Source: Ignavibacteria bacterium (GTDB lineage: Bacteria; Bacteroidota; Ignavibacteria; Tepidaquicellales; OLB5). Taken from it: DNA of 32,923 nucleotides. A program made the translations under genes and the position numbers. This document shows positions 4,551 through 31,722 of this stretch, in pieces (within the stretch, counting starts at the first letter, position 1; each line of letters begins with the position of its first letter). The stretch spans positions 1-32,923 of the forward strand of contig JABFSP010000372.1 of the NCBI GenBank assembly GCA_013140565.1, written 5' to 3'. The notes under the pieces are model-generated. The model did no database searches. It had not been told where the DNA came from and saw nothing but the letters and a program-made list of their open reading frames with translations.

Positions 4551-5999
4551 TTATCTTTCAAGCTCTTCAGCTTTTTTCAAAAGCCAGATTTTGTTAATTA
4601 AAGCCCGGTTTTCTGAAATTTCCCTTTTTATTTTATTAAGCTCAAATTCTTTATCCTTACCGTCTGTGTTTTTTAAATTAAACAGTTTTCTGGAGTAATT
4701 TATAAAACCATTCACTTGTTCGCGCACCTTATCATGAACTATTTTGTTGTTAAGAATAAAATGCTTGTACGTATCAATATGTGAGTAAAATGGTTCAGAT
4801 TCGTTAAGGTCATAATAAATTTTCAACGTTAGAGATTTGATATTCTGCTTAAATACAAATTCTTCAGAGGTTACCTTTGACAATTCAACAAGAGAGCTTT
4901 CCAGATCATTTTTCCAGTAATGACCCAGCGCGCAGCAAAAGTGATGTGTATCAGTTCTCAAGTCCTCTTTAACCTCATTAATATTCTCTCTAATGAATTT
5001 ATTTACCCACACTGATTCCCCTGCTTCATATCCTGTAGCTACAAGACTGATAAAAAATATATTTGAAATGTAATCAACTGTTCCCTTATGCAGACCTTTA
5101 TCTACAGTTTGTTTATAAAGCTCAAATTGTTGTTTTACAAATTCATCGCTGCCGCTTGTCACTTTAGTATAGCAGAAATTTGTCAATACAGTAAGAATAT
5201 CTTTACTTTTGTGAATATGCAAAATATCAAAGTTCTTTATAAGGAAATCTTTAAGCAGAAAAAAATATTTTTCTTCCTGAGTCTGCATCAGTTTAAAAGA
5301 AAGATAATAGGCGTTAACATAAGGTATATCCAGGAATTTTTTACCCTCCCTGCTGAAAAAGATATCTAACTCTACGGATAAATTGTAAGTAAAACGAAAA
5401 TTTGAAATTTGAGAATTTCTTGTCAGAAGGAAGGTATTATGATAAAGTATTTTTATCAAAAAACCTGATGTTAACAGGTCCGAAATTTCCTGGAACAGTT
5501 TGTTTTCCCTTATGTAACTATCCGTAACATCTTTCTGAAACCCGCTGTAAATCAAACTAAGTTCATATTGTTTATCGTAATAATGCTCATCTTTATAAAC
5601 TGTATTTTCTATCGTTTTGCTTACTCTTTCCTTTTTCTTCAAAAAATGTCCGGTAAGCTTCCTGCTTTTCAGTTCTTCAAGTAACAGCATATCCTTTCTG
5701 AATTCCTTTTTATTAAAATTAAGTACTGCAAGGAATTCATTTGCAAGCCTGAGCATATCAGAAATAACATTTCTCATCAGGGCATCATTGTATTTTTTTC
5801 CGGGATAAAGAAATTCGAATACTTTTTCCTTTTCCATATGCTTTTTATCGTATTCCGGATGACATATTTTCAGATAGTCCGCCAGATTCATCAGCACTTT
5901 TTCTTTGTTGAAAAAGGGTGAATGAACAAAATCTCTGAATTGTTTAAGCTCACCCGGGCTCAGAGTTTTGAGCAATAATACAAATCTTGAATTATTCAT
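4551..5999 (-). CDS. Uncharacterised helical protein, paralog A of a three-member family (SPYF/WLLKK family)
   Basis: MNNSRFVLLLKTLSPGELKQFRDFVHSPFFNKEK...YPEYDKKHMEKEKVFEFLYPGKKYNDALMRNVISDMLRLANEFLA...IWLLKKAEELER; aligns with 12357-13835 and 17497-18957. The listed ORF extends to 6065, but homology to the paralogs starts at the 5999 ATG. Confidence 0.85.
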   Translation of the reverse strand: MNNSRFVLLLKTLSPGELKQFRDFVHSPFFNKEKVLMNLADYLKICHPEYDKKHMEKEKVFEFLYPGKKYNDALMRNVISDMLRLANEFLAVLNFNKKEFRKDMLLLEELKSRKLTGHFLKKKERVSKTIENTVYKDEHYYDKQYELSLIYSGFQKDVTDSYIRENKLFQEISDLLTSGFLIKILYHNTFLLTRNSQISNFRFTYNLSVELDIFFSREGKKFLDIPYVNAYYLSFKLMQTQEEKYFFLLKDFLIKNFDILHIHKSKDILTVLTNFCYTKVTSGSDEFVKQQFELYKQTVDKGLHKGTVDYISNIFFISLVATGYEAGESVWVNKFIRENINEVKEDLRTDTHHFCCALGHYWKNDLESSLVELSKVTSEEFVFKQNIKSLTLKIYYDLNESEPFYSHIDTYKHFILNNKIVHDKVREQVNGFINYSRKLFNLKNTDGKDKEFELNKIKREISENRALINKIWLLKKAEELER

Positions 6000-6171
6000 A
6001 TTTTTTTGTGTACTCCCAATGGTGACAATATAGTGATAAATCCTTTGAAACGATACGTTTTTCATAAAAAATGTGAATCTTTCATCCTACATTTTGCTTT
6101 AATTTTCTTTGTGAAGACCTGCATGCAGATACTAACTTTGCAGAGCATCAAAAAAAAGGGAGAACTCAATA

Positions 6172-6606
6172 ATGAAGACATTAATATTATCCATAATGGT
6201 TTTAATATTCATGGCCGCATTTTCAGATGGCTGCCAGGATATCCTGGGCAGGAAAAAGAATCAGTCAGATACGCAGTATTTGAAAAAGGTAAACGGTAAC
6301 AATTGGCTATTTCCGGGAGCAAAGGGAGAATACTGCAGGTATAAATTGTACGAAGATGTAAACCGAATGACCGTAATTGATACGATCTGTATTTATTGCC
6401 CTTATCAGGACTCAGTCAGCCTGGGGTGCATGAAAGAAAACGATTACAAATACATTTGGGACCAGGAGTATCACAGGGAAGACTCAATTATGACATGGAA
6501 GCGAATGTATATTGAAAAATTAAATACCGATGTTAATTCAGATTGCAAAGAATGTCCGCCTTCAGAACAAAAATATACACAAACAATTTATGGTTATACG
6601 TGGTAA
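6172..6606 (+). CDS. Small Cys-rich secreted/lipoprotein-like hypothetical protein
   Basis: Hydrophobic N-terminus MKTLILSIMVLIFMAAFSDGC followed by CIYC and CKEC motifs; AGGGAGAAC upstream of the ATG. Confidence 0.65.
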   Translation: MKTLILSIMVLIFMAAFSDGCQDILGRKKNQSDTQYLKKVNGNNWLFPGAKGEYCRYKLYEDVNRMTVIDTICIYCPYQDSVSLGCMKENDYKYIWDQEYHREDSIMTWKRMYIEKLNTDVNSDCKECPPSEQKYTQTIYGYTW

Positions 6607-6664
6607 GGGATAAAATACAGTATAAAATATAAATATAAACCAAGAATAAGGAGAATAATAACAT

Positions 6665-8032
6665 ATGGAAAAATTTCAAACCGTATTTTCAGGACCAAAG
6701 GTCATCATGCTCACACTGGGCATAATGCTCTGCTGCAGCCAGGCTTTCTCACAATGGACACAAACTTCAGGAACCCCCGAAGGAGCAGGTATTACCGATA
6801 TGATCACAACTGCCAATGGTACTATAGTGGTAACATGCGCGAGTTATAGCTGGCCAAGCGGTCAGCAGGGCGGAATCAGAATATCATCCAATAGCGGCGC
6901 AAGCTGGCAAAGCGTTGTTAATGCATATAACGGCAGAACCTTGCATCTTGGAACTACAGGGAAGATATTCGCTTCTTTCTGGCCATATCCAACCGCGGAA
7001 GGAATGTATTTTTCAACAAACAACGGGTTGAACTGGGAACAATCATATTACGGAGGCGCTAGCGATAACGTGTTTTCCATTACCTCAACAAACAATGATA
7101 ACACAGTTTTCATCGGTACAAGATATGGTGTATGGAGATCAATAAATAATGGTTTATGGGCGCAGGTTTTCGGTGGTATCCAGCCGAATACTTTTGTATA
7201 TGACTTAGAGGCGGACAGCTCAGGAACATATATTGCAGCTGGAACATCAAAAGGTTTGTATGTTACTTCAAATAACGGAACCACCTGGAGCCCGGTATCA
7301 GGCATAAATGTTGATGATACCATTTATGCAGTTAAATTTATCAAATCACAGGGTGATGATCCGGAAGACAACTTTTTGTTCAGTACAACTTCCAAAGGTG
7401 CTATGTTTAAAAGTCCTGAATCTGCGCAGTACCTGGCAGCAATATTAGTATATACGTTCCTTGGAAAAATTGGCGATGTTCAGGTTGTAAAGAATGCAGA
7501 CCTTATTTATATAGCCGGGGCTCTTTCTCCTTTTCATCTGGATAATTCAGTTAATGCCGGTTTTGTTTTGTCATCTGATATGGGCAGCTCGTGGCAGGAT
7601 ATCAATACTGGTCTGCCCGGGAATCCTGTAGTATCAAGAATAACTTACAATATCTCCGGCGGCAATATTAACTGGCATGCAGGTTTATTCAATAACACAC
7701 TTAACGGAGCTAAAGTATACAAAATGACAACACCTATTGGCATTAACCAGATCTCAAATGAAGTTCCGGATGGCTTTTCTCTTTCACAAAACTATCCTAA
7801 TCCGTTTAACCCCGTGACAAAAATTAAATTCAATGTTGCTAAAGAGTCTGCGGTAAATATCACAGTCTTTGATGTACTTGGCAGACACATATCAACACTT
7901 GTGAATGAAAAACTAAGAGCGGGGAGTTATGAAACCGAGTGGTCTGCGGTAAATATGCCGGGCGGAGTTTATTTTTATAAAATTGAGACTGATGACTTTA
8001 CGGAAACGAAGAAGATGATGCTGGTAAAATAA
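6665..8032 (+). CDS. Secreted Asp-box/beta-propeller protein with T9SS type A sorting domain
   Basis: Signal peptide; S-x-x-x-G-x-x-W Asp-box-like repeats (SSNSGASWQ, STNNGLNWE, TSNNGTTWS, SSDMGSSWQ); C-terminus QNYPNPFNPVTKIKFNV...GVYFYKIETDDFTETKKMMLVK. Confidence 0.9.
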   Translation: MEKFQTVFSGPKVIMLTLGIMLCCSQAFSQWTQTSGTPEGAGITDMITTANGTIVVTCASYSWPSGQQGGIRISSNSGASWQSVVNAYNGRTLHLGTTGKIFASFWPYPTAEGMYFSTNNGLNWEQSYYGGASDNVFSITSTNNDNTVFIGTRYGVWRSINNGLWAQVFGGIQPNTFVYDLEADSSGTYIAAGTSKGLYVTSNNGTTWSPVSGINVDDTIYAVKFIKSQGDDPEDNFLFSTTSKGAMFKSPESAQYLAAILVYTFLGKIGDVQVVKNADLIYIAGALSPFHLDNSVNAGFVLSSDMGSSWQDINTGLPGNPVVSRITYNISGGNINWHAGLFNNTLNGAKVYKMTTPIGINQISNEVPDGFSLSQNYPNPFNPVTKIKFNVAKESAVNITVFDVLGRHISTLVNEKLRAGSYETEWSAVNMPGGVYFYKIETDDFTETKKMMLVK

Positions 8033-8056
8033 CATAATTTGAAATTTTTGCACTCT

Positions 8057-8082
8057 AAGCCGTCAATTTGACGGCTTTTTTA
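8057..8082 (+). terminator. Rho-independent terminator
   Basis: AAGCCGTCAA-T-TTGACGGCTT followed by TTTT. Confidence 0.85.
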
Positions 8083-8155
8083 TTTAATTGAATATAATAC
8101 CCAAAATCGGTATTATTGGTAACAATTCTAATAAAAATTTAAAATTTTATCGCCC

Positions 8156-9295
8156 ATGAGAAATTTATTTTTCAGTATGATAGCCTTAACAGCAATTGCA
8201 GTTTTTACAATTTCAGGCTGCAACAAAGGCAGCGGAGATGAGATCCTGATCGGTGAATACGGTTCATTAACCGGACCGAACGCTACATTTGGTATTTCAT
8301 CAACCAACGGCTTAAAACTTGCTGTTGAAGAACTTAACAATGCAGGCGGATTGCTTAATAAGAAGGTAAAGCTCATTACATACGATGATCAGGGCAAACC
8401 CTCAGAAGCGCAGACAGTTGTTCAGCGTTTAATTAAAAATGATAATGTTGTTGCTGTAATTGGTGAAGTAGCTTCATCGAACAGTAAAGCCGGCGCGCCG
8501 ATTTGCCAGCAGAATAAAATCCCAATGATAACTCCGGCATCAACCAACCCGGAAGTTACAGCAATTGGCGACTATATTTTTAGGGTATGTTTTATTGACC
8601 CGTTCCAGGCAACCGTTGTAAGTAAATTTATCTTAAATACGCTTAAGATGAAAAAAGTTGCTTTGCTTAAGGATGTAAAGAATGCTTACTCTACCGGGTT
8701 AGCTGATTTCTTTGAAAAAGAATTCAAAAATATGGGCGGCGAAATTGTTGAAGTACAGTCATTTTCGGCGGGTGATAAGGATTTTAAAGCCCAGTTAACA
8801 TCTATTAAAGCTAAGAATCCGGAAGCGATATTTATTCCTGCTTATTATACTGATGTGAATTTAATATCCATTCAGGCACGTGAAATAGGCTTAACAATTC
8901 CGTTAATTGGCAGTGATGGCTGGGAATCAGAAAAGCTTACCGAAGGCAAAGCAAAGGATGCGCTTGAAGGATGTTATTTCTCAACTCACGTATCCACAGA
9001 AAATCCTGATCCGTTAATCCAGGAATTCATAAAAAAATATAAAGCTAAATATAACTCAATGCCTGATGCAATGGCATTCCTTGCATACGATGCAGGTTTG
9101 ATACTTTTTGAAGCAATGAAAAAAGCCGGCACAACTGACCCTGAAAAAGTTAAAAATGAGCTTGCAAAGATAAAGGATTTTTCAGGTGTAACAGGAAAGA
9201 TATCGATCAATGAGCAGCGTAACGCTATAAAACCTGCAGTGATTCTTGAAATAAAAGGCGGTCAGTTTAAATTTAAAGAAACGGTACAGCCATAA
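8156..9295 (+). CDS. ABC transporter substrate-binding lipoprotein, branched-chain amino-acid type (LivJ/LivK-like)
   Basis: Lipobox TISGCNKG; GEYGSLTGPNATFGISSTNGLKLAVEELNNAGGLLNKKVKLITYDDQGKPSEAQTVVQRLI. Confidence 0.93.
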   Translation: MRNLFFSMIALTAIAVFTISGCNKGSGDEILIGEYGSLTGPNATFGISSTNGLKLAVEELNNAGGLLNKKVKLITYDDQGKPSEAQTVVQRLIKNDNVVAVIGEVASSNSKAGAPICQQNKIPMITPASTNPEVTAIGDYIFRVCFIDPFQATVVSKFILNTLKMKKVALLKDVKNAYSTGLADFFEKEFKNMGGEIVEVQSFSAGDKDFKAQLTSIKAKNPEAIFIPAYYTDVNLISIQAREIGLTIPLIGSDGWESEKLTEGKAKDALEGCYFSTHVSTENPDPLIQEFIKKYKAKYNSMPDAMAFLAYDAGLILFEAMKKAGTTDPEKVKNELAKIKDFSGVTGKISINEQRNAIKPAVILEIKGGQFKFKETVQP

Positions 9296-9296
9296 G

Positions 9297-10208
9297 ATGA
9301 CAGAATTCATTCAGCAGGTATTTAACGGACTCTCGCTTGGAAGTATTTATGCTCTGATTGCGCTTGGATATACTATGATCTACGGTATCCTGCGGTTTAT
9401 CAACTTTGCGCACGGTGATGTATTTATGATTGGCGCTTTTTCAGGTTATTACCTCGGGATATTATTCGCATTCGCAACCGTATCAGGTATAGCCTCAATT
9501 GGTATGGCCTTATTGATAATGCTTGGCGCTATGATAGTTACCGGCGCTTTGGGCTTTACAATTGAAAAGCTTGTATATAAACCGCTGCGTAAATCTCCAA
9601 AGCTTACTATACTTATTACCGCAATTGGTGTTTCATTGTTTTTGGAATACGGCGGGCAGTTGGTATTTGGCGCTGACCCGAAATCATTCCCTTCTCTTCT
9701 TGAAAATAAACCGCTCATCAATCTTTCAGGAGCGGTAATAGGTTCAAACCCGGTTGTAGTACTTTTAACAGCAGGTATACTGATGATTGGTTTAAGGCTT
9801 ATTGTTATGAAAACAAAGATAGGTACTGCAATGCGTGCGGTATCGTATAATCCAACTGCTGCAAGTCTAATGGGTATCAACATTAACGCAGTTATCAGTT
9901 TTACTTTCATAATCGGCTCCTCACTTGCAGGTGCCGCGGGTATTTTGTATGGACTCAATTATCCAAGTATCGATCCGCTTATGGGCATTCTGCCGGGTCT
10001 GAAAGCCTTTGTTGCGGCAGTACTGGGCGGCATAGGAAATATTCCCGGTGCGGCTTTAGGCGGAATGATAATTGGACTGCTTGAAACTTTTGTTACGGGC
10101 TATATTTCACCCACGTACCGCGATGCAATAGCTTTCGGTATATTAATATTGATATTACTTTTCAAACCTACAGGTTTATTAGGGAAAAAAGAGATAGAAA
10201 AAGTATAG
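9297..10208 (+). CDS. livH: Branched-chain amino-acid ABC transporter permease (LivH-like)
   Basis: QQVFNGLSLGSIYALIALGYTMIYGILRFINFAHGDVFMIGAF...LKAFVAAVLGGIGNIPGAALGGMIIGLLE. Confidence 0.93.
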   Translation: MTEFIQQVFNGLSLGSIYALIALGYTMIYGILRFINFAHGDVFMIGAFSGYYLGILFAFATVSGIASIGMALLIMLGAMIVTGALGFTIEKLVYKPLRKSPKLTILITAIGVSLFLEYGGQLVFGADPKSFPSLLENKPLINLSGAVIGSNPVVVLLTAGILMIGLRLIVMKTKIGTAMRAVSYNPTAASLMGININAVISFTFIIGSSLAGAAGILYGLNYPSIDPLMGILPGLKAFVAAVLGGIGNIPGAALGGMIIGLLETFVTGYISPTYRDAIAFGILILILLFKPTGLLGKKEIEKV

Positions 10209-10222
10209 GTTATTATTCATAG

Positions 10223-10253
10223 ATCATCGGATGACTTCAAGTCATCCGATGAT
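10223..10253. repeat. Perfect palindrome/hairpin (REP-like)
   Basis: ATCATCGGATGACTT-C-AAGTCATCCGATGAT, 15-bp arms. Confidence 0.85.
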
Positions 10254-10261
10254 TAAGTTTG

Positions 10262-10288
10262 GAGTGAGAAAGTTCACTCTTTTTTTAT
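10262..10288 (+). terminator. Rho-independent terminator after livH
   Basis: GAGTGA-GAAAG-TTCACTC followed by TTTTTTT. Confidence 0.75.
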
Positions 10289-10300
10289 ATGTAAATTTGC

Positions 10301-10687
10301 ATGAATGAAGTAGAAAAATATATATCAGCTTTGCCTGAAAACGAAAAAAAGCTTGCAGCTAAGCTGCGTGATATTGTTCTTTCGGTAATACCGAATGCCA
10401 AAGAAAAGCTTTCATACGGTGTGCCGTATTTTTGGGGTAACCAGCGGATATGTTTTATCTGGCCGGCATCGTCTCCTTACAGCAAATTTAAAAAAGGAGC
10501 GGTGTTCGGGTTCTGCAAAGGTTACCTGCTCAATAATGAAGACGGCTTTCTGGAGCAGGGTGGCAGAACACAGGTTTATACTGTAGCATACGGTTCAGAG
10601 AAAGAAGTAAAAGTAAAGCAGCTCAAAGACAAAATACTTGAAGCCGTAATGGCTGATGATATAAAAATTCAGTTCAGAAGAAAATAA
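10301..10687 (+). CDS. DUF1801 (YdhG-like) domain protein
   Basis: VEKYISALPENEKKLAAKLRDIVLSVIPNAKEKLSYGVPYFWGN...FGFCKG is typical of DUF1801. Confidence 0.8.
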   Translation: MNEVEKYISALPENEKKLAAKLRDIVLSVIPNAKEKLSYGVPYFWGNQRICFIWPASSPYSKFKKGAVFGFCKGYLLNNEDGFLEQGGRTQVYTVAYGSEKEVKVKQLKDKILEAVMADDIKIQFRRK

Positions 10688-10691
10688 TTGT

Positions 10692-11105
10692 ATGAGTGAA
10701 ACAAAAGTAATCAGGCAGGATGTTCTGGCACGCATAAAAAAAATTCCGATTGTTGATACTCTAGGGTTTGAGTTTATTGAAATGGATATTGGCAGATGCG
10801 AAGCAGTTGTAAAACACCAGAAGAAGTATGACGGAATTTATGAGTCATTTCATGGCGGGCTGCTAATGACCGTTGCCGATTCCATAAGCGCTTTCGCGCT
10901 ATTGACACTTGCGGGAGCGGATGCTCCGATTACCACAACGGATATGAACATTCGTTTTCTGGCAGCCTGCAGAACAGACGTTCGGGCCATTGCAAGAGTT
11001 ATCAAACACGGAAGAACACTCGCACCCGTTGCAGTTGATATGTTTGATATGAACAACGTACATGTTGCAGTTGCGCAGGTGAATTATATTATTCTCAACA
11101 AATAA
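10692..11105 (+). CDS. PaaI-family hotdog-fold thioesterase
   Basis: DTLGFEFIEMDIGRCEAVVKHQKKYDGIYESFHGGLLMTVADSISAFALLT...TTDMNIRFLAAC. Confidence 0.88.
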   Translation: MSETKVIRQDVLARIKKIPIVDTLGFEFIEMDIGRCEAVVKHQKKYDGIYESFHGGLLMTVADSISAFALLTLAGADAPITTTDMNIRFLAACRTDVRAIARVIKHGRTLAPVAVDMFDMNNVHVAVAQVNYIILNK

Positions 11106-11109
11106 AAAT

Positions 11110-11142
11110 ATTCATCCGATGACTCAAAATCACCGGATGAAT
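11110..11142. repeat. Imperfect palindrome related to 10223-10253
   Basis: ATTCATCCGATGA-CTCAAAA-TCACCGGATGAAT; 12 of 13 paired; shares TCATCCGATGACT with the other element. Confidence 0.75.
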
Positions 11143-11205
11143 TTAATTCGTAAAATAAAACCCTTTAACTGCCGTCTTAAATAAAACAAACTATCTTAAT
11201 TTTTC

Positions 11206-12351
11206 TTGAAAAAATCACAATTTGCAGTATTCTTAACCATAGTTTTAAGTGTATATACTCTGGTTAATTATTACATTTTTGTAACAGGGCTGCATTCCAT
11301 TCCGTATAACTACAAATTTTTATATTCCGCAGTATACTTGTTTTTTTTCCTGTCTTATATTATAGGCAGATTCCTGGAACGTAAATTCCTGAATGCGGTT
11401 TCAGCATTTTTTGTATGGGTAGGTTCTTTCTGGCTTGGGGCAATGGTGTATTATCTTCTTTTTGTAATATTAATAGATATTATACGATTACTTAATGTTT
11501 TGTTCGGTTTCCTTCCTGTTTCATTTTATTCGCCTGATTATCAGGTTTTGTTCTTCCTATGTGTGAGTTCCGTTGTAATCTTAATTGTAATATTGGGGTA
11601 TTCCAATGCAGCGAATCCGGTTGTTAAAAAACTGAATATTAACATTAACAAAAAGGAAGGCGGACTTAAATCACTTAAGATCGTTATGGCTTCTGATATT
11701 CACCTTGGCACTATCATTAACAGAAAACGTCTCAGAAAAATTGTTGATAGAATTAATTCGCTTTCACCCGATATTATTTTCTTGCCGGGTGATGTTGTTG
11801 ATGAAGATATTGGACCTGTCATAAAGCAAAATGCTGGTGAATTGCTTCGAACTCTAAAAGCCAAATACGGAGTATATGCTGTCACTGGTAATCATGAATA
11901 CATAGGCGGGGTAGAGCCTTCAGTGGAATATTTGACAGAACACGGATTGATCGTACTGAGGGATAAGACAGTTAAAGTGGCTGAATCATTTTACATTATT
12001 GGCAGGGAAGACCGCGCTTCAAAGGGTTTTGCGGGTATTCGCAGAAAACCGCTGAACCAATTAATAGAAGGAGTTGATAAAAACCTGCCTGTTATACTAA
12101 TGGATCATCAGCCGCTCAGACTGGAAGAGGCTGAAGTAATCGGAATAGACCTCCAGTTAAGCGGACATACTCACCACGGACAGTTATGGCCGTTCAATTT
12201 TATTACTAAAAAGTTATATGAAGTAAGCATGGGATACAAACAGAAAGGGAATACGCATTATTATGTTTCCTGTGGTGTTGGCTCATGGGGTCCCCCTATT
12301 AGAACGGGCAACAGACCGGAGATCCTTCAAATAGATCTGAACTTTTTGTAG
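11206..12351 (+). CDS. Membrane-anchored metallophosphoesterase (YkuE-like)
   Basis: N-terminal transmembrane segments; MASDIHLGTIIN, DIIFLPGDVVDEDIG, VTGNHEY, LSGHTHHGQLWP. Probable TTG start. Confidence 0.9.
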   Translation: MKKSQFAVFLTIVLSVYTLVNYYIFVTGLHSIPYNYKFLYSAVYLFFFLSYIIGRFLERKFLNAVSAFFVWVGSFWLGAMVYYLLFVILIDIIRLLNVLFGFLPVSFYSPDYQVLFFLCVSSVVILIVILGYSNAANPVVKKLNININKKEGGLKSLKIVMASDIHLGTIINRKRLRKIVDRINSLSPDIIFLPGDVVDEDIGPVIKQNAGELLRTLKAKYGVYAVTGNHEYIGGVEPSVEYLTEHGLIVLRDKTVKVAESFYIIGREDRASKGFAGIRRKPLNQLIEGVDKNLPVILMDHQPLRLEEAEVIGIDLQLSGHTHHGQLWPFNFITKKLYEVSMGYKQKGNTHYYVSCGVGSWGPPIRTGNRPEILQIDLNFL

Positions 12352-12356
12352 TACCG

Positions 12357-13835
12357 CTATTGCTTAACAATAAGTTCATCTGTCTTCTTTAATAACCACT
12401 CCCTGTTAACAAAGTGACCCGAAGCGATTATCTTTTGCCTTAATGAATTTATTCTGAACTCATCAGGCTCAAGCTTAAGCCTGATGTACTTTCCTGTAAA
12501 ATCCAAAAACTTGCTGAATGTTTTCTTCCTTTCTTCCGGTATTTGTTTATCATTTTTTAGCGAATGCTTGCTGGTATCTATCAGGTTTAAAGCGTTTTCA
12601 AAAGATCCGGTTTCACAGTAAATGACTATCATAAGGTCTTTCACCTGCTGTTTTCTTGCGCTGTATTCAATATTGATCCTTGAAAGATATTCAAGCGACT
12701 TTCCATATTCCTTTTTACCATACGATAACACACCCAATGCATAGTTTTCAGCAAAAGTTTTGTGTCTTGGTTCAAGCTTTAAACTGTATTTCTTTATGAA
12801 ATTTTCTGACCAGGCGTGTTTCCCAAGTGAAACAGCATTTCTGACAGAAGATAGAAAATAATTCATGTCGAAATACTCACCCGTACTGTGTATGTCGTTA
12901 TTCATAATTTCAGTATCCAGTTCAAATCTTTCAGTGTCAAATCCTGTAAATCCCATATTCTTTTTTCTAACGCAATAGTTCACCATAGTAACATACAGGT
13001 TGCGCAGGGTATTTGAATTTAATTTGTTCTCTATCCTTCCTTTAAGATTTTTAAGTTCATAATAGTATTTATCCTCTTTCCTGATGTTCAGCAATATTTC
13101 ATTGTAATGCATTGCAATAAGAGCGTCTTCGGCAATTACCTCTTTGTGCGATTCTGCAAAAGCAAGTATATTCTCAAAAAATTCAGTGTTTATCTTAGTG
13201 TTTAAGATCGCCTTATCATTTTCGATATTCCTGTAAATTTCCAGTGCCCGGCACAAAGTATATTTTATAAAATTATCCGCCTCAGAATTAACATCATACT
13301 TCTTCAGCATTTCACCTTTTGTATATGCATAGTTGTTCCTTATTAATTCCAGTGACTGCTTATTATAGTAATAATTAGAATCATATTTTTGAATATCGAT
13401 AGATTGTTGAGACAAATAAAATTGCCTGTAAAAAAACTTCTCCGGCATTTTTCTGCTTAATGCAGTTACTGCATTAATGCTTCGCGCTGCTGTATCCTGA
13501 TAGAACTCTTCCTGGTTTAAAAACTCAATGGCAAGTTTGCCAAGATCTGAATCTAGTCTCCTCAATAAAACACTGCTGAATTTTCTTTCAGGATATAATC
13601 TTTTAAAAAGGGTTTCCTTTTCTAATTCTGATCTGTCAAATGCAGGGTAAAATTCTTTTAAAATACAAAAGTATTCATATAGCAGCTTACTCCTGATATT
13701 TTTGCCTTCAGTGAAATATGGTGACCGTAAAAATCTGTCAAAATTTCTTAGTTCTTTCCCTGAAAGAGTCTTTAATATTGAAAACAGGCTGTTTACATGC
13801 ATTTTCACAGTACAAATTGTTTGTAAATTATTCAT
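12357..13835 (-). CDS. Uncharacterised helical protein, paralog B of the SPYF/WLLKK family
   Basis: LFSILKTLSGKELRNFDRFLRSPYFTEGKN...EFYPAFDRSELEKETLFKRLYPERKFSSVLLRRLDSDLGKLAIEFL...REWLLKKTDEL. Start may instead be the ATG at 13802. Confidence 0.85.
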   Translation of the reverse strand: MNNLQTICTVKMHVNSLFSILKTLSGKELRNFDRFLRSPYFTEGKNIRSKLLYEYFCILKEFYPAFDRSELEKETLFKRLYPERKFSSVLLRRLDSDLGKLAIEFLNQEEFYQDTAARSINAVTALSRKMPEKFFYRQFYLSQQSIDIQKYDSNYYYNKQSLELIRNNYAYTKGEMLKKYDVNSEADNFIKYTLCRALEIYRNIENDKAILNTKINTEFFENILAFAESHKEVIAEDALIAMHYNEILLNIRKEDKYYYELKNLKGRIENKLNSNTLRNLYVTMVNYCVRKKNMGFTGFDTERFELDTEIMNNDIHSTGEYFDMNYFLSSVRNAVSLGKHAWSENFIKKYSLKLEPRHKTFAENYALGVLSYGKKEYGKSLEYLSRINIEYSARKQQVKDLMIVIYCETGSFENALNLIDTSKHSLKNDKQIPEERKKTFSKFLDFTGKYIRLKLEPDEFRINSLRQKIIASGHFVNREWLLKKTDELIVKQ

Positions 13836-13965
13836 AAATTAAGGAATTTCATAAAAGAATTCAATACTCTTACGGTACATTTATATATAAGTTTCTTTGG
13901 ATTTACCTGTAAATGTTGATTATCTTAAACCAGAAGATTAAGCAGTAAAATTAAACAAAGTTGAT

Positions 13966-15021
13966 ATGAGACAAAAGAATAAATTCAGGCTGGTTATACT
14001 TGGTTTAATATTTATCTCTCCAATGTTTTTGGGGGAAGGGGGTTGTGACGGGTGTGAAACGAAAACAAGTATTGTGGACCCCAGTCCGGGAAGAAGCGGA
14101 GCAGTATTAATATATAAAACAGGAAAATCATCAAACTGGATTACAATGGACTTTCCGGAATACAGGGGATTTTCAGATTTTGAAATTGGACCCAACAATG
14201 TTTTTATGATGCCAACATATGAAAAGTTTGTAGGTAAATCTACAAACTATGGTGCCAACTGGATATTTCCGGTAGTAGTTGATACTTTAGCAGTTAATAC
14301 TGAATTTGTTTGCAGTTACTACAATGATATACAGGGATATTATATTACAACTTCCTCAGGCAACATCTTTATTTCCGGTGATGACGGTTTGAACTGGACA
14401 AAAATTGCCTATAACAATAATTTTGGCACCTGTAGCGGAATTGAATTTGTTCAGAAATACCCAACCGGCATAACCGGGATAGGTTTATTCCATTCCGGTA
14501 TTTTTCGCACTACTGATGGTGGATATAACTGGAACAATGTCTATACGGAAAGCAGCTTTAATGACCTTGCGTATTTTTACATATCGGGCGCTAACGCAAA
14601 ATTTGCAGCACTTAGAGGATATACAGGGGGTATTCATTATTCTTCAAATGACGGTTTAAACTGGGCCCCCGTAAGTACACATATAAATAATATTAATGCT
14701 ATAGAGTGCTTTGGAGAGTTCGGTATAATTGCTGCCGGAGATTGGATCGCTTATTCACCTGATAGAGGTGCAACCTGGCAAAATGTCACTCCAGCATCTT
14801 ATGTTGAATTGATAAGAACTGATCCTATTGTTGATCTATATGCAAGCTATCCAGGTGAAGAAGTCACTGCAGTTTCCGGGCAGGGCAGGATCTATTATAA
14901 CGTATTTAATAACCCGCAGGAATGGCTTTATTATGATGGTATTCCAAACGGGAATACAATTACAGTATCAAAAATTCATCACAATGGATATGATGGTACT
15001 TTTGTTATGGGAAAATATTAG
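13966..15021 (+). CDS. Secreted (lipoprotein-like) Asp-box/beta-propeller protein without a T9SS sorting domain
   Basis: N-terminus ...ISPMFLGEGGCDGCETK; Asp boxes SGDDGLNWT, TTDGGYNWN, SSNDGLNWA, SPDRGATWQ. Confidence 0.75.
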   Translation: MRQKNKFRLVILGLIFISPMFLGEGGCDGCETKTSIVDPSPGRSGAVLIYKTGKSSNWITMDFPEYRGFSDFEIGPNNVFMMPTYEKFVGKSTNYGANWIFPVVVDTLAVNTEFVCSYYNDIQGYYITTSSGNIFISGDDGLNWTKIAYNNNFGTCSGIEFVQKYPTGITGIGLFHSGIFRTTDGGYNWNNVYTESSFNDLAYFYISGANAKFAALRGYTGGIHYSSNDGLNWAPVSTHINNINAIECFGEFGIIAAGDWIAYSPDRGATWQNVTPASYVELIRTDPIVDLYASYPGEEVTAVSGQGRIYYNVFNNPQEWLYYDGIPNGNTITVSKIHHNGYDGTFVMGKY

Positions 15022-15054
15022 GATGCTGTTAACATAAATTTTAATTTCAAAGAC

Positions 15055-16386
15055 ATGAAGAAAATTACATATATATTTTTATTCATAATGTTGTTTATTT
15101 CACTTGCCGGATTTAGAGGTTGTGAATCTTTCTTTTATGGCCTATTTGGTATTGATGTAAATAGTTTAGCATTTGCTCTGGTTTTTGGAGGTTCGGATAA
15201 CTTGCCGGTACATTACGGAGTTGCAGTTACCGGGGACGGTAGAATCTATACCAGCGAAGGCAGACCTTCTGCTCCATGGGTCTTAAGGAATAGCGGCAAC
15301 ACACGACGCTTAAACTCAGTGAAAACTTTAAACAGTACTGATTCATCAGTTACATATGCAGTTGGTGATTCCGGTACTGTGCTGCGCTCAACCGATAAAG
15401 GTCATACATGGAGTAACCGGAACGTGCCTTACCAGAATTTTCCAAATCTGCATGGCCTCGATTTCCTTCCCTTGCAGGAAGGACTGTTTGCCCACATTGT
15501 GACTGTTGGCGATAACGGTAAAGTGGTTAAGTCTGAAAATTTTGGCAGCTACTGGAACTGGTTTGAATACCCGTCACTTACAAACAGGAATTTAAGGTCT
15601 GTGGCAGTTATCAATTCTTCCATATGGATCGTTGTTGGCAGCAGGGGAGCCTTATACAGGACCTCGACAGGAGGTGAGACCTGGCAGAGCATTTCAACAG
15701 GAGATACGAACGGTTATAATAAGATCGTACAGGTAAGATATGATACATATTTAATTGCTGGGAATAACGGCAAAATATACATGTCAACAAATTATGGTTC
15801 TTCATGGACTCCGAGAACAAGCGGAACTACAAAGCATTTGCGGGATGCATTATTTAAAAATGAACTTGAGGGAGTTGTTGTTGGTGATGACGGGACAGTA
15901 AGACAAACAACAAATGGCGGCACTACCTGGACAGCAGACCCGTATTTAAACGGGCTGACAACAAGAGATATAATTTGTATATCAAAATTAGATTCATTAA
16001 CAGTAAACTCAGTTACACGTAATTTGGGTTTAGCTGATAGTCCCTCCGGTGATACCACTTATTTCCTTGCCGTCTCATCAGAGCCATTCATAGGGATAGA
16101 ACCGATCTCAAATATTATAGCCCGGATTTTTGAACTTGGCCAGAATTTTCCAAACCCGTTCAATCCGGTGACGAACATTGAAATATCTATCCCTGTTGGA
16201 TCAAATGTGAACGTAGTAATTTATGATATTGCAGGCAGGGAAGTAGAAACGCTGTTTAACAATGAATTGAAGGCAGGTGTGTATAAAATTGACTGGAATG
16301 CGGCAAATTATTCAAGCGGCGTTTATTTCTATAGAATGACAGCGGGGAAATTTACTGAAACAAGGAAAATGATATTACTGAAGTAA
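15055..16386 (+). CDS. Secreted YCF48/Asp-box repeat protein with T9SS sorting domain
   Basis: STDKGHTWS, STNYGSSWT, TTNGGTTWT repeats; C-terminus QNFPNPFNPVTNIEISIP...SGVYFYRMTAGKFTETRKMILLK. Confidence 0.9.
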   Translation: MKKITYIFLFIMLFISLAGFRGCESFFYGLFGIDVNSLAFALVFGGSDNLPVHYGVAVTGDGRIYTSEGRPSAPWVLRNSGNTRRLNSVKTLNSTDSSVTYAVGDSGTVLRSTDKGHTWSNRNVPYQNFPNLHGLDFLPLQEGLFAHIVTVGDNGKVVKSENFGSYWNWFEYPSLTNRNLRSVAVINSSIWIVVGSRGALYRTSTGGETWQSISTGDTNGYNKIVQVRYDTYLIAGNNGKIYMSTNYGSSWTPRTSGTTKHLRDALFKNELEGVVVGDDGTVRQTTNGGTTWTADPYLNGLTTRDIICISKLDSLTVNSVTRNLGLADSPSGDTTYFLAVSSEPFIGIEPISNIIARIFELGQNFPNPFNPVTNIEISIPVGSNVNVVIYDIAGREVETLFNNELKAGVYKIDWNAANYSSGVYFYRMTAGKFTETRKMILLK

Positions 16387-16411
16387 CCCTTTGGAGGGGT
16401 TACTTCAGTAA
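16375..16411. terminator. Hairpin between convergent genes (possible bidirectional terminator)
   Basis: TTACTGAAGTAACCC-TTTGGAG-GGGTTACTTCAGTAA, perfect 15-bp stem, spanning the 16384-16386 stop codon and abutting the 16413 stop. Confidence 0.7.
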
Positions 16412-16412
16412 C

Positions 16413-16874
16413 CTAAAATCTGAAAAATGGCTTGCTTGAAAACGGCGAGAACGGCCATGGTGTCATAAGTAAAACAAGTATCACTGCAATTGTGAACCAG
16501 ATCGCGAGCGCTTTAAATTTAGCATGGTCATCCGTTTTCTTCTTAGATATGGCAGAACCGATGGTTATTAATGCTATTGCAAGAACCATCACAATTGCGT
16601 GTTCCATTCCGTAGAACCTGATATCACGCACTTTCACAGCAGCGCTGAAATTGCTCATGAAATATTTTGTTATGGGACTCAGGAAATAAAGAGCCAAACC
16701 AAGTACCAGCTGAATGTGAGCGGCAATAACCGTGTATTTTCGTGTCTTCGCGTCAGCGGGATCAAATGATCGTTTTCCGAACATTCCCGAATACGCCCTG
16801 TATAGAGTATACAAGACCCCAAGAACAACCAGCCATCTGAAAATTGAATGAAGCGAAAGTAGTGTTGTGTACAT
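16413..16874 (-). CDS. Small multi-pass membrane protein (cytochrome-b-like hypothetical)
   Basis: Four hydrophobic segments with conserved-looking His (LHSIFRWLVVLG, AAHIQLVLGLALYFLSP, GMEHAIVMVLAIALI). Confidence 0.65.
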   Translation of the reverse strand: MYTTLLSLHSIFRWLVVLGVLYTLYRAYSGMFGKRSFDPADAKTRKYTVIAAHIQLVLGLALYFLSPITKYFMSNFSAAVKVRDIRFYGMEHAIVMVLAIALITIGSAISKKKTDDHAKFKALAIWFTIAVILVLLMTPWPFSPFSSKPFFRF

Positions 16875-16896
16875 TTATTGTTTTATCGTAACATTC

Positions 16897-17451
16897 TTAA
16901 TTTACGCTTGGATTTTCGGGGAAGCTTGCAAGTATCGCGAATTTTTTACCCATCCCCTTCAGCGTTTCACGCCAAAGCTTATCAGGTTCAACGGAAAAAA
17001 TATTTTCAATTGAAGTATCTGCCACTATCCATGAATTAATCTCCAGCTCATCATCAATTTGCCCGTCAGTCCATCCTGAATATCCAAGGAAGAACCGGAA
17101 ATCTTCGGGCGCAGCAGTACCGGATGTGATGAGTGTTTTCAGGATATCAAAACTGCCGCCCCAGTATAGTCCCGGCATAATCTCAATTGAGCCATCAATA
17201 ATATTTTCGCCTTTATAAATAAATTGCAGAGTATTTAACTGTACGGGACCGCCGTAGTATACAACTGAATCGAATTCCGGGAATTCTTCAATGACTTCAT
17301 GTATCAGGTAATCAGTTGGTTTATTCAACACAAAACCAATAGAGCCTTCTTCACAATGTTCGGTCAATAATATAATTGTCCTCTTAAAATTGGGATCATT
17401 CAAAAAGGGTTCTGATATCAGTACTTTGCCTTTTGCGGGATTTTCGCTCAT
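16897..17451 (-). CDS. YqgE/AlgH family protein (DUF179)
   Basis: GKVLISEPFLNDPNFKRTIILLTEHCEEGSIGFVLNKPT...YYGGPVQ...FLGYSGWTDGQIDDELEINSW. Confidence 0.93.
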   Translation of the reverse strand: MSENPAKGKVLISEPFLNDPNFKRTIILLTEHCEEGSIGFVLNKPTDYLIHEVIEEFPEFDSVVYYGGPVQLNTLQFIYKGENIIDGSIEIMPGLYWGGSFDILKTLITSGTAAPEDFRFFLGYSGWTDGQIDDELEINSWIVADTSIENIFSVEPDKLWRETLKGMGKKFAILASFPENPSVN

Positions 17452-17496
17452 AACTTCAGCAATATAACGCTAAAAGTAATTATAGAAAATAGGAAT

Positions 17497-18957
17497 TTAT
17501 TGATTTTCTATTTCTGTTATTTTTTCCATGAGCCAGTTGTAACCTTCAGTTATATGCTCTTTTTCGAGATTTTTTTTCAGATACTCCAATTCATCTTTCC
17601 TGTTACCTGTCCTGATCTTTAATATTTCGGAATAAAATTTAATAAAACTAAGTATCTGTTCTTTAAGGGATAAACTAATGTTAATATTTTCGGAAAGAAA
17701 TTTTCTGAATGATTCAATGATTGTAAAGGCGCTTTCCCAATAGCCGAGTTCAAAATATAGTTTTGATGAAAGTATTCTTATATCCAGCTTTAACGAATAT
17801 TCAGAAAGGTCAATTTTTTGAAGAAGTTCCAGAGAGTGTTTAAAATCTGATCTTTTGAAGGCTAATAAAGAATAGCCATATTCTTTATAAGGCCTGATAA
17901 GATCTTTATGCAGGAAATTTATGTGATTTTCCAGCAGCTCATTGGTAAATTCTAAATCGTTATAACTGATCGAAAGTGTTAGTGCATTTTTAAATGAACC
18001 AAGTGGTAGTATTTCATCACCGGGAAAAATATGTAGACTATTCTCAAACATGAACTTTATCATAACATATCTTTCTTTTTCTATCTTTTCATCTTTGCTG
18101 GATTTTAATATATAGGTCAGGCAATTCATTAACAGAAAAATAAATGACTGTTTGGTCGGTTTTGGGATTACTTGTAAGTTATTAAAAAAGATCGTCTTTG
18201 CCTCAAAATAGAATTTTTTATCCCTGAATCTTCTTGCTTTATATAAATTATAATAAAACGATATTTTATAACTCTCACCTGGATTAGATTCTATTAAACA
18301 GGAAATAATCTCGTCAAAATTAACATTATTATGGATTACATCTATAATCTCAGGCATAGGTTGATTTATAGCATTGGATTTAGCCACTTCATCGGCATAA
18401 GTAACAAAATACTCCATGAAAAAAAGTGTGGCAACCGATGTTGTAACATCAAATTCTTTATTCTTGATGTTAAGGTTTCTTCTTCCGTTATAGAATGTTG
18501 CTTCAATTAAACTCAACTCATATTTATTCCTTAGCGCATCAAGAGGGTCAACTATTTCCAGTTCATGGAATTTGTCATAAGCCGCTTTAATCGTATCGGA
18601 AAATTGTTTTTCAAGGTTCCTGTTATGGTATGCATTAAGTTTTGCATGAAGTACTTCAAATTTATTTGTATCAAACATTTTTTGAGCCAGGAAATCTTCT
18701 GCAAGAGAGTTTAGACCTGAAAACATAGTCTTCAATACTGTATCTTTGAATTCTTTTCCCGGGAAGAGTTTTGAATAAACATTTTCTTTTGAAAATTTAG
18801 CTGAACTGAAATCAGGGTAATAATGTTTCAGCACTTTCAGTAATGTTACATAATTTCTTCCGCCATTGAAATACGGCGAAGCAGCGAACCTTTGAAATTC
18901 CCTGAATTCCGGTTTTGAAAAGGTCTTTAGTATCTGAATGATCTTCAATTTATCCAT
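17497..18957 (-). CDS. Uncharacterised helical protein, paralog C of the SPYF/WLLKK family
   Basis: IIQILKTFSKPEFREFQRFAASPYFNGGRN...HYYPDFSSAKFSKENVYSKLFPGKEFKDTVLKTMFSGLNSLAEDFLA...YNWLMEKITEIENQ. Confidence 0.85.
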   Translation of the reverse strand: MDKLKIIQILKTFSKPEFREFQRFAASPYFNGGRNYVTLLKVLKHYYPDFSSAKFSKENVYSKLFPGKEFKDTVLKTMFSGLNSLAEDFLAQKMFDTNKFEVLHAKLNAYHNRNLEKQFSDTIKAAYDKFHELEIVDPLDALRNKYELSLIEATFYNGRRNLNIKNKEFDVTTSVATLFFMEYFVTYADEVAKSNAINQPMPEIIDVIHNNVNFDEIISCLIESNPGESYKISFYYNLYKARRFRDKKFYFEAKTIFFNNLQVIPKPTKQSFIFLLMNCLTYILKSSKDEKIEKERYVMIKFMFENSLHIFPGDEILPLGSFKNALTLSISYNDLEFTNELLENHINFLHKDLIRPYKEYGYSLLAFKRSDFKHSLELLQKIDLSEYSLKLDIRILSSKLYFELGYWESAFTIIESFRKFLSENINISLSLKEQILSFIKFYSEILKIRTGNRKDELEYLKKNLEKEHITEGYNWLMEKITEIENQ

Positions 18958-19028: not shown

Positions 19029-19136
19029 CACAAAAACATTGTTTACAATCAAGTATATTTCTCTTTGCGGCCCTAAAGGGCAATAAGTAAGTTTGATAAA
19101 ATTAATATTCTATAATTAAAAAGGGAATGTAAAATT

Positions 19137-20717
19137 ATGAGAACTCAAATACATCTTTTTGTAATGCTGGCACTGTTAAGTTCAAACTTGTTTTCTCAAT
19201 ACATTCTGGATTATAATTACAATTATTCACCCTCAAACCGGTATTTTAAGTATTCTATAGTAGATGCAGCAGGAAATACTTATGTGACCACCCAAAGTCA
19301 TAATTACCAGGATAGCGCGAATATAGTAACGATGAAATTTTCACCTGCCGGGACACGTTTGTGGATCTCAGTTTATGATGGACCCGGACACAGCGTGGAT
19401 AGACCTGTCGGCATCACAGGAGATGTTTCAGGTAACCTGTATGTATTCTCAACAGTCCGTTACACAGATAGTTCGTACATTACTATTTTGAAATACAATC
19501 CTTCAACTGGCGGGTTGATATCTTTAACTCCCTTGCCGGGTACAGGGCGTTTTGATTTTACTGAAGCGGTATTTGACAATAAGTATATATATGCAATAGG
19601 CCGCATTTACAAACCCAGCTTAATTGCAATAGCTATGATAAGAACAAAATATGATGGTTCTTACACAAGGATACGGACTTTTGATGCTTTGTATGGGAGT
19701 GGTCACTCAATTGCGATAGATAAATCCAAAAACATTTATGTAAGCGGGCATTTATGGAACGCGGCTGGTTATTATGACTGCCAGATGTTAAAATATGACA
19801 GTTCATGTACACAAAGATGGGTCCTCAATATGGGCAAGTACAATCCTGATGGCGGCAGATTATCAAAGGTCCTTGTTGACGCATTAGACTGTGCAGTTGT
19901 TACTTATCAAATGGATAAAGACCGGTATCATGACCTAATTGTGACAAAAAAATTCACTGCTGACGCAATTCCTGTTATGAGCTGGGAACAGAATTTCAGT
20001 GTTTCAGATGATAATTTCGGACCTTATAATTTTGACGGTTACAAAGATTTTACAATTGATAACAGCAGGAATATTATTGTTGCTGGTTCAACCGGTGATA
20101 CATCTCTTTTGGTAAAATATAACGCATCAGGCACAATGCTCTGGACCAAAAAAGATGTTGTTAATGCTTATGAATTCAAATGCATAACTACAGATAACAC
20201 CCGGAATATTTATGTTGCTGGTGATTTCAAAAGCAGGGGCACGGCAGCAAAGTATAACGGTACAAGCAGCGCTCTTATCTGGCGCGGCGATATAACTTAT
20301 CCATCAGGAATCTTTCTGGGAGATAAAATTTCACTGGATGCATCATCCAGAATTCACATACTGGGTGCCAGGTACTATGGCGTTATACCTTACAGGCAAA
20401 TAACAATACTATCCTATTCCCCAACAGCCCCGCGGCTTGCTGTAATTGAAGAATCTTCATTCCGTTTGGGAAATAATTTCCCCAACCCGTTTAATCCCGT
20501 TACTTCAATCAGATTCTCAATCCCTGTTTATGGCAGTGCAGTTCTCAGGGTTTTTGATAATATTGGGAGAGAAGTAGCCGTTCTGGTAAACGGAAATCTG
20601 GAACCGGGCGAGCATAGAGTCACTTTTGATGCATCTGGTCTTTCCAGCGGGATATATTTCTATAAGTTAGAGTCAGGCAAATATTCTGAGATCAAGAAGA
20701 TGGTTCTTGTAAAGTAG
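19137..20717 (+). CDS. Secreted SBBP/beta-propeller-type repeat protein with T9SS sorting domain
   Basis: Signal peptide; repeated 'DxxxNIYVxGxxxxxxxxxxxxxKYxxxG' units; C-terminus NNFPNPFNPVTSIRFSIP...SGIYFYKLESGKYSEIKKMVLVK. Confidence 0.9.
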   Translation: MRTQIHLFVMLALLSSNLFSQYILDYNYNYSPSNRYFKYSIVDAAGNTYVTTQSHNYQDSANIVTMKFSPAGTRLWISVYDGPGHSVDRPVGITGDVSGNLYVFSTVRYTDSSYITILKYNPSTGGLISLTPLPGTGRFDFTEAVFDNKYIYAIGRIYKPSLIAIAMIRTKYDGSYTRIRTFDALYGSGHSIAIDKSKNIYVSGHLWNAAGYYDCQMLKYDSSCTQRWVLNMGKYNPDGGRLSKVLVDALDCAVVTYQMDKDRYHDLIVTKKFTADAIPVMSWEQNFSVSDDNFGPYNFDGYKDFTIDNSRNIIVAGSTGDTSLLVKYNASGTMLWTKKDVVNAYEFKCITTDNTRNIYVAGDFKSRGTAAKYNGTSSALIWRGDITYPSGIFLGDKISLDASSRIHILGARYYGVIPYRQITILSYSPTAPRLAVIEESSFRLGNNFPNPFNPVTSIRFSIPVYGSAVLRVFDNIGREVAVLVNGNLEPGEHRVTFDASGLSSGIYFYKLESGKYSEIKKMVLVK

Positions 20718-21487: not shown

Positions 21488-22057
21488 TTGCATAAGTTCA
21501 TCCATAAATTGAAAGACCGACTGCAGGAAATAACTGAGGAGCAAATTGTAACATCCCTGAAACAAAAGAACAGGGATGCGGTTGGTATATTATATGATAA
21601 ATATTCCAGCCTGCTTTTTGGTATTATTGCAAGAATTGTAAAAAGCGATGAAACTGCCGAGGACCTTTTACAGGAAGTATTTGTTAAGGTATGGAAGAAT
21701 ATTGAAAGTTACGATCCCGCAAAAGCAAAGCTTGTTACATGGATGGGTAATATAGCTAGAAATCTGGCAATTGATAAAATTCGCTCAAAGGATTACAAAA
21801 ATTCACAGCAAAACCACGATATAGAAGATTACGTAAATACTATTGAGGAAAACCCGTCATCATCTTTTAATCCTGATCATATTGGAGTCAAGGAAATGAT
21901 TGAAAAACTTGCACCCGAACACAGGATCTTGATTGACATGGTATATTTTCAGGGTTATACCCAGGCCGAAACCGCCGAAAAGCTGGGCATTCCGCTTGGA
22001 ACTGTGAAAACCAGAATAAGAAGCGCAATTAATAATTTAAGAGATATTTATACATAA
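21488..22057 (+). CDS. ECF-type RNA polymerase sigma factor (SigK-like)
   Basis: ILYDKYSSLLFGIIARIVKSDETAEDLLQEVFVKVWKNIESYD...WMGNIARNLAIDKIRS...GYTQAETAEKLGIPLGTVKTRIRSAINNLR. TTG start. Confidence 0.93.
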   Translation: MHKFIHKLKDRLQEITEEQIVTSLKQKNRDAVGILYDKYSSLLFGIIARIVKSDETAEDLLQEVFVKVWKNIESYDPAKAKLVTWMGNIARNLAIDKIRSKDYKNSQQNHDIEDYVNTIEENPSSSFNPDHIGVKEMIEKLAPEHRILIDMVYFQGYTQAETAEKLGIPLGTVKTRIRSAINNLRDIYT

Positions 22058-31284: not shown

Positions 31285-31722
31285 ATGGACTATATTCCAA
31301 GAAGTTTGCAGGTACTGCTGGTTGAAGATAACGAAGGCGATGTACGCCTTATAAAAGAGGCGTTCAGCGAAAGTAAAATAGATAAAACTTTTTCGGTTGC
31401 CCGTGATGGCGAAGAAGCACTGAATTATTTATATGCCAGGGGAAAGTACGCAGAAAGAACAAAACCCGATATTATTCTGCTGGATATAAATTTACCTAAA
31501 AAGAACGGGTTTGAAATACTTGAAAGCATTAAAAATGATCCTGAACTGAAAAAAATTCCTGTAATTATGCTTAGCAGCTCTAGCTCTGAAGAACATATCA
31601 CCAAATCATATGATCTGAATGCTAACTGTTATGTAACCAAGCCGGTTGATTTTGATGAATACACACAGGCAGTAAAGATAATCGAAGACTTCTGGTTCCA
31701 GATGGCTAAACTGCCCGGTTAG
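31285..31722 (+). CDS. Stand-alone response regulator receiver (Rcp1/CheY-like)
   Basis: VLLVEDNEGDVRLIKEAFSES...PDIILLDINLPKKNGFEILESIKNDPELKKIPVIMLSSS...CYVTKPVDFDEY. Confidence 0.95.
   Translation: MDYIPRSLQVLLVEDNEGDVRLIKEAFSESKIDKTFSVARDGEEALNYLYARGKYAERTKPDIILLDINLPKKNGFEILESIKNDPELKKIPVIMLSSSSSEEHITKSYDLNANCYVTKPVDFDEYTQAVKIIEDFWFQMAKLPG

Follow-up and report, generated by a model that had tools for sequence, protein, structure and literature searches.

What is the function of a protein family that occurs three times between positions 4551 and 18957 of a single contig? The contig, JABFSP010000372.1, belongs to an Ignavibacteria metagenome-assembled genome (MAG; GCA_013140565.1, here G000), a 3.73-Mb draft that is 93.8% complete, and the whole 32,923-nucleotide (nt) stretch that we analyzed is referred to as the window. 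The original prediction, made from the letters of the window, described three minus-strand open reading frames (ORFs) as paralogs of an uncharacterized family: P0001 (4551..5999), P0002 (12357..13835) and P0003 (17497..18957). All three are present, and P0003 matches P0001 (E = 3.1e-25) and P0002 (E = 3.3e-18) over the full length, so the similarity is neither due to chance nor confined to the ends of the proteins. Based on sequence comparisons, we propose with a probability of roughly 0.65 that the family consists of local, sequence-specific transcription regulators, probably activators, each dedicated to the promoter of a divergently transcribed secreted-protein gene. The evidence computed here is the family and its copy number, the divergent pairing, the promoter, and the covariation between protein residues and promoter bases.

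The three paralogs are real, but the count was greatly understated. The same similarity search with P0003 recovered ~55 members of ~480–500 aa in G000, and counting copies per genome gave 50 in the complete congener G008 (3.7 Mb), 59 in G020, 45 in G028 and 57 in G010, a few of the entries being fragments. With 50–60 copies per 3.7–4 Mb, we estimate that the family accounts for about 1–2% of the genes in these genomes. The relatives named here, all Ignavibacteria MAGs, come from a collection scan that used a four-member alignment as the query, as the alignment of 46 paralogs was too diverse for use. Within the order, 37 of 39 sampled relatives carry the family, many with at least 40 matches; in a phylum-wide sample that included this order, a match was found in 15 of 393 genomes, with one to three copies in each genome outside the order. 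The N-terminal block and the C-terminal WLxxK-type motif noticed in the three window proteins hold across 46 paralogs, over which W475 is invariant and E17 and S27 are conserved at 90% or more. One quoted letter was wrong, as P0001 reads HPEYDKK and not YPEYDKK. No member matched Pfam, NCBIfam or PHROG above the cut-off (for PHROGs, 0 of the 21 members tested), and literature searches returned no mention of the family. The family had neither a name nor a function, and we found no domain or paper for it. One weak match to the family profile (L021:2415-4352, plus strand) was excluded as a false member; this protein of 645 aa resembles class III cyclases, has a TPR (tetratricopeptide repeat) tail and is divergent from a family member.

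Neither the copy number of the family nor its divergent pairing with exported genes was part of the original prediction. In G000, 42 of the 46 members with an upstream neighbor are divergent from that neighbor, and in 40 of 49 cases the member and the gene downstream of it are convergent, whereas 80% of other neighbors are co-oriented. The divergent arrangement was found for 137 of 170 members in an enlarged set, compared with 10% divergent pairs among other neighbors, and 19 of the remaining members are tandem family members. Such arrays of two or three family genes occur at L014:4658-9146, L024:5426-8357 and other loci, and the intergenic region shared with the divergent gene adjoins only the first family gene of the array. 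Among the 137 divergent cases, 82 have a type IX secretion system (T9SS) sorting domain within the first three divergent genes. Por_Secre_tail was detected in 25 of 39 divergent-gene proteins scanned, and SBBP or BNR-type repeats are common. The single-copy members from other families and another class also face mostly exported-looking genes. As exported genes are abundant in the local background too, orientation and promoter weigh more than cargo class alone. When two regulators are >45% identical, their cargoes are related in about half of the pairs or more, and at <35% identity they are rarely related; the pairs therefore appear to be maintained for some time before they re-assort, and the operator then goes with the regulator. 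In G000 we counted at least 150 T9SS sorting-domain matches in 3.7 Mb, so that cargo genes outnumber family members by a factor of roughly three or more.

A search for 6-mers in the intergenic regions returned one strand-specific motif, TCTTTG, oriented toward the divergent gene in 35 of 61 regions (5.4 expected). Bacteroidota promoters recognized by sigma-ABfr have TTTG at -33 and TAnnTTTG at -7 (PMC7366714). Both elements are present in the promoter that faces away from the family, the consensus of which is TTTCTTTG-n20/21-TAnnTTTG. It differs from the published promoters in its extended -33 element (TTTCTTTG), a spacer of mostly 20–21 nt, an A-rich block at -9 to -6 and a paralog-specific block further upstream, where position 0 is the first T of the -33 TTTG. 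This variable block lies 13–25 nt upstream of the -33 TTTG, and the consensus includes a T-x-A-C-A-like block at -21 to -17. The pattern TCTTTG-n16-22-TAnnTTTG was found in 51 of 132 family-divergent intergenic regions. The corresponding counts were 5 of 232 for other genes, 4 of 39 for other T9SS genes, which lack a divergent member, and 0 of 145 on the side of the family gene itself. Promoter scores of at least 8 were obtained for 158 of 222 regions, compared with 11 of 222 on the reverse strand, and the distance between the -33 element and the family start shows a clear preference (mode 100–120 nt). In G008, the exact pattern TTCTTTG-n20/21-TAnnTTTG occurs at 19 sites, 15 of which are located no more than ~310 nt upstream of a family start, pointing away from it. 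Congeners rich in the family have 19–23 exact sites per genome, and relatives with 0–2 copies have 0–3, which is near the control level.

Promoters of this special type without an adjoining family gene were seen in G008 (C1:589251, C2:137581 and C2:495227) and G000 (C317:27457 and 29515). They may be targets regulated in trans, or their regulator may have been lost. In addition, the family-divergent promoters have A-enriched columns 11 nt apart, at about -59, -70 and -81 upstream of the -33 TTTG, which suggests phased A-tracts or bent DNA between regulator gene and operator.

Were each protein to read its own promoter, the similarity of two proteins would be expected to predict DNA similarity at the binding site alone. 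Among protein pairs that are 28–45% identical, DNA similarity rises sharply with protein identity at -25 to -13 and less so at the -33 extension, and the upstream control windows are flat. For the operator window the correlation is r = 0.175 (permutation standard deviation 0.021, p = 0.002, the floor of the test), the null being row permutation and not a full phylogenetic model. Across the alignment columns, residue 73 is the most strongly associated with the site (z = 15.3), followed by 76 and 72, and 74 is also in the top five. Residues 72–77 correspond to the first turn of a long predicted helix after a PGKKYND loop, the point at which insertion of a recognition helix would be expected.

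We then considered all 43,245 pairs of protein column and DNA position in an unbiased scan of 77 representatives that are <40% identical. The six highest-ranking pairs were, in order, 415 with -1, 72 with -18, 76 with -18, 77 with -20, 72 with -17, and 419 with -1. As expected of a transcription factor, residues of the candidate recognition helix covary with operator bases, at ranks 2–5 of the scan. The main pairs persist at an identity cut of 33% and partly at 30% (56 representatives). In the latter set 415 with -1 and 77 with -20 are still in the top three; 72 with -18 drops to rank 69 overall, yet column 72 is first among the columns for base -18. At -18, D72 is found with C (63/87), K72 with G (17/25) and Y72 with A (19/21), while R76 occurs with C and W76 with G. 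At -17, Q73 goes with T (35/41) and S73 with A (27/30), and at -20, N77 occurs with T or G, K77 with C and T77 with A. When trained only on sequences <35% identical to the one in question (leave-relatives-out), residues 72, 73, 76 and 77 predict bases -17, -18 and -20 with accuracies of 0.83, 0.69 and 0.63, versus 0.63, 0.49 and 0.43 for the majority base. The mean prediction from 40 control residue quartets was below the majority base.

These results do not agree with the suggestion that the paralogs have diversified interiors, perhaps for partner recognition. The residues that track the target are in the conserved N-terminal block (72–77) and one C-terminal helix (415 and 419), and partner recognition is not supported because the tracked target is DNA, specifically the bases of the divergent promoter.

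The predicted structure was closer to the mark. Family members lack a signal peptide, as had been noted, and the anticipated all-helical, TPR-like superhelix is seen in the AlphaFold2 model of P0003 (21 sequences; mean predicted local distance difference test score, pLDDT, 86.9), in which helix-turn-helix pairs in tandem form a superhelix. The top Foldseek matches of this model are TPR-type superhelices with E-values of 6e-3 and above, and nothing was found at E ≤ 0.001. Profile searches matched designed TPR proteins (1e-13), and Pfam TPR models gave weak matches from single members. The N-terminal 117 residues modeled alone (pLDDT 91) have no strands, with helices at 5–11, 15–26, 28–31, 37–44, 57–64 and 72–112; a profile search with this domain returned no PDB relative. 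As modeled, the architecture is an N-terminal all-helical domain followed by a TPR-like superhelix.

In the mechanism that we favor, the N-terminal all-helical domain (about residues 1–97) would bind the intergenic DNA that separates its own gene from the divergent one, with a recognition helix starting at residue 72 after the PGKKYND loop. Residues 72–77 would read the address at -25 to -13, which is specific to the paralog, and residues 415 and 419 of a second helix would read the base immediately preceding the -33 element (TTTC followed by TTTG). Bound from about -25 to the edge of the -33 element, the protein would be the immediate upstream neighbor of sigma region 4 on a Bacteroidota promoter of the housekeeping type (TTTG-n20/21-TAnnTTTG). 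The promoter would most likely be activated, switching on one operon for a secreted or T9SS-surface protein. The TPR superhelix would probably bind an inducing ligand, peptide or partner; we place the signal there by analogy with AimR, in which the TPR domain takes a peptide ligand and controls the binding to DNA (PMC12472986). From the data above we infer physical DNA binding, activation over repression, and a signal. That the proteins are local DNA-binding regulators of one sign or the other is, from the same comparisons, very likely.

The sign is where the closest alternative lies. We prefer activation because of the 20–21 nt spacer and the direct abutment of the site on the -33 element, but the same protein could act as a repressor, bound beside the -33 element to keep the gene off until released on a signal. 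Divergent repressor–target pairs are common, which counts for repression, as do the abutment itself and a promoter near consensus, expected of a gene held off. The mostly 20–21 nt spacer and the reading of the base adjoining the -33 TTTG suit a contact with sigma at least equally, however, and the site does not overlap the -7 element, so that we consider repression possible though unlikely. A different role for the TPR-like fold would be that of a cytoplasmic chaperone or adaptor for one T9SS cargo each, the superhelix binding the product of the neighboring gene and the motif being no more than a strong promoter that cargo genes have in common. The one-to-one adjacency to cargo and the co-inheritance with it at >45% regulator identity would fit. 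Such an adaptor does not predict covariation of protein residues with DNA bases, seen here at the head of all pairs, and the operator signal persists at <35% regulator identity, where cargoes are rarely related. The paired genes are also divergent and do not form an operon, a few of the partners are non-exported, and the promoter is much rarer at T9SS genes that lack a divergent member (4/39 versus 51/132). We regard the adaptor role as improbable.

The convergence with the downstream gene (40/49 in G000), which makes many members inverted singletons in opposite gene runs, together with the tandem arrays, might point to cargo of a mobile or recombination system with the motif as its recombination or integration site. 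The motif is however a directional -33/-7 promoter at a preferred distance (mode 100–120 nt) on the 5′ side, Pfam/NCBIfam-type domain searches detected no recombinase domain in the family, and regulator–cargo pairs are conserved between species. This reading is largely refuted, and we give it very little credence. We also rejected a dedicated alternative sigma factor, since both elements of the housekeeping type are retained in the promoter under control.

Several observations weigh against local, activating regulators. No known DNA-binding domain was recognized by sequence or fold, and the N-terminal model has no match in the PDB at E ≤ 0.001, the best being BEN4-DNA at a non-significant E of 2.1. 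Some members face non-exported genes. G028, with 45 copies, has eight exact promoters, of which about two are at family members; the rarity of the exact pattern despite so many copies indicates that the consensus drifts between families. The evidence for the second contact, of 415 and 419 with base -1, is weaker, and the promoter score rewards C at -1, which partly favors this signal; with anchors that ignore -1, D415 is found with C in 72 of 75 cases. Finally, in a disjoint nearest-pair test residues 72, 73, 76 and 77 were associated with their bases (p 0.002–0.02), but unrelated columns reached lower p for -20 and -18. That test is thus confounded by divergence, and it was superseded by the representatives at <40, 33 and 30% identity.

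We compared the family with known TPR-containing regulators. The RRNPP proteins (PlcR, Rgg and the arbitrium receptor AimR) likewise have a helical DNA-binding part, here putative, at the N-terminus followed by a TPR-like superhelix, and an arbitrium receptor (6s7i) is in the Foldseek list with a weak E of 0.15. In contrast to these, the N-terminal fold of the family has no PDB match, a residue of the C-terminal superhelix also covaries with DNA, and each genome has 50–60 copies, with a separate putative target for every copy. In RRNPP proteins the TPR groove binds a secreted signal peptide. Their HTH_3-type (cro/C1) domain was absent from the best 25 of 29 families listed for 46 members, as were PF00486 (Trans_reg_C) and PF03704 (BTAD) of the SARP/AfsR regulators. 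The latter combine an OmpR-type winged helix with BTAD and thus resemble the family in having a DNA-binding N-terminus (putative here) and a TPR-like domain. In SARPs a contact with sigma region 4 is suggested by a site beside the -35/-33 element, and the family's putative site has the same placement; the family models lack beta strands and therefore a wing, unlike SARP/AfsR. The family would work like TPR-containing regulators of both groups, and it lacks those defining features of each that were compared. LysR-type regulators, SusR/HTCS (hybrid two-component system) proteins and extracytoplasmic function (ECF)-sigma/anti-sigma pairs are encoded beside their targets, in the latter ones Bacteroidota surface-protein operons. 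The family would share with them a private regulator next to an exported-protein target; it is an unrelated, single cytoplasmic protein and, unlike ECF-sigma pairs, would act on a housekeeping-type promoter and supply no sigma factor. Genomic context gave no hint of anti-phage defense. We think it reasonably probable that this is an undescribed regulator class, with a new DNA-binding fold, two-point DNA reading and 50–60 mutually different regulator–operator pairs per genome. The two points would be the N-terminal recognition helix and a TPR helix, and each pair would be wired privately to one surface-protein promoter. The DNA-binding fold itself is possibly new.

All three window members fit the divergent pattern, facing exported genes that start at 6172 and 6665, at 13966 and 15055, and at 19137. 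P0001 (482 aa) has the predicted two-part architecture and no Pfam family. Its ORF is nested in a longer one reaching 6065, and the start at 5999, which we prefer, agrees with the family alignment as well as with the spacing of the promoter. In P0003 numbering its candidate recognition residues are D72, A73, R76 and N77, with D415 and H419. The putative operator CATCCTACATTT (6083..6094, plus strand) is 14–25 nt upstream of the -33 TTTG, at the covarying positions of the family, and the promoter (6104..6140, plus strand) reads TTTCTTTG (6104–6111), n21, TAACTTTG (6133–6140). The first divergent gene (6172..6606, plus strand; 144 aa), without a confident Pfam match, is predicted to be exported, with a hydrophobic N-terminus then Cys, as in lipoproteins. 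The second (6665..8032, plus strand; 455 aa) has BNR/sortilin-like repeats and Por_Secre_tail, the T9SS sorting domain. P0002 has 492 aa when the whole ORF is counted, and the family alignment is consistent with a start nearer 13800. Its putative operator TACGGTACATTT (13871..13882, plus strand) precedes a promoter at 13892..13927 (plus strand) with TTTCTTTG (13892–13899), n20 and a degenerate -7 element, TTATCTTA (13920–13927). This promoter faces an exported 351-aa protein with BNR/sortilin-like repeats (13966..15021, plus strand) and a 443-aa protein with BNR repeats and Por_Secre_tail (15055..16386, plus strand). P0003 (486 aa), the protein modeled with AlphaFold2, has D72, T73, K76 and T77, with E415 and K419. 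Its putative operator TTGTTTACAATC (19039..19050, plus strand) and promoter (19060..19095, plus strand; TCTCTTTG at 19060–19067, n20, TAAGTTTG at 19088–19095) face a 526-aa protein with a signal peptide, SBBP beta-propeller repeats and Por_Secre_tail (19137..20717, plus strand).

All three window operators have TACA at -20 to -17. The P0001 operator, TCATCCTACATTTT, has C at -18 and T at -20, matching the prediction of the code for D72, R76 and N77. The P0002 operator sequence is TTACGGTACATTTA. The P0003 operator, ATTGTTTACAATCA, has T at -20, whereas T77 would favor A. Near the cargo gene divergent from P0003 are an ECF-type sigma factor (21488-22057) and then an RskA-like anti-sigma factor (22101-22964), both on the plus strand. 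Further along the same strand are a 1788-aa hybrid sensor kinase (25803-31169) with a receiver domain, a long PAS array, HisKA and HATPase, and a stand-alone receiver protein (31285-31722).

If the proposed function is correct, the paralogs are a natural library for a residue-to-base recognition code. As they differ in recognition residues and operators, they are also a possible set of orthogonal regulators for Bacteroidota, and the pairing would give a functional clue to many uncharacterized beta-propeller T9SS cargoes. Dozens of local regulators would control dozens of secreted and surface proteins one by one, giving members of this poorly cultured class individually switchable surfaces.

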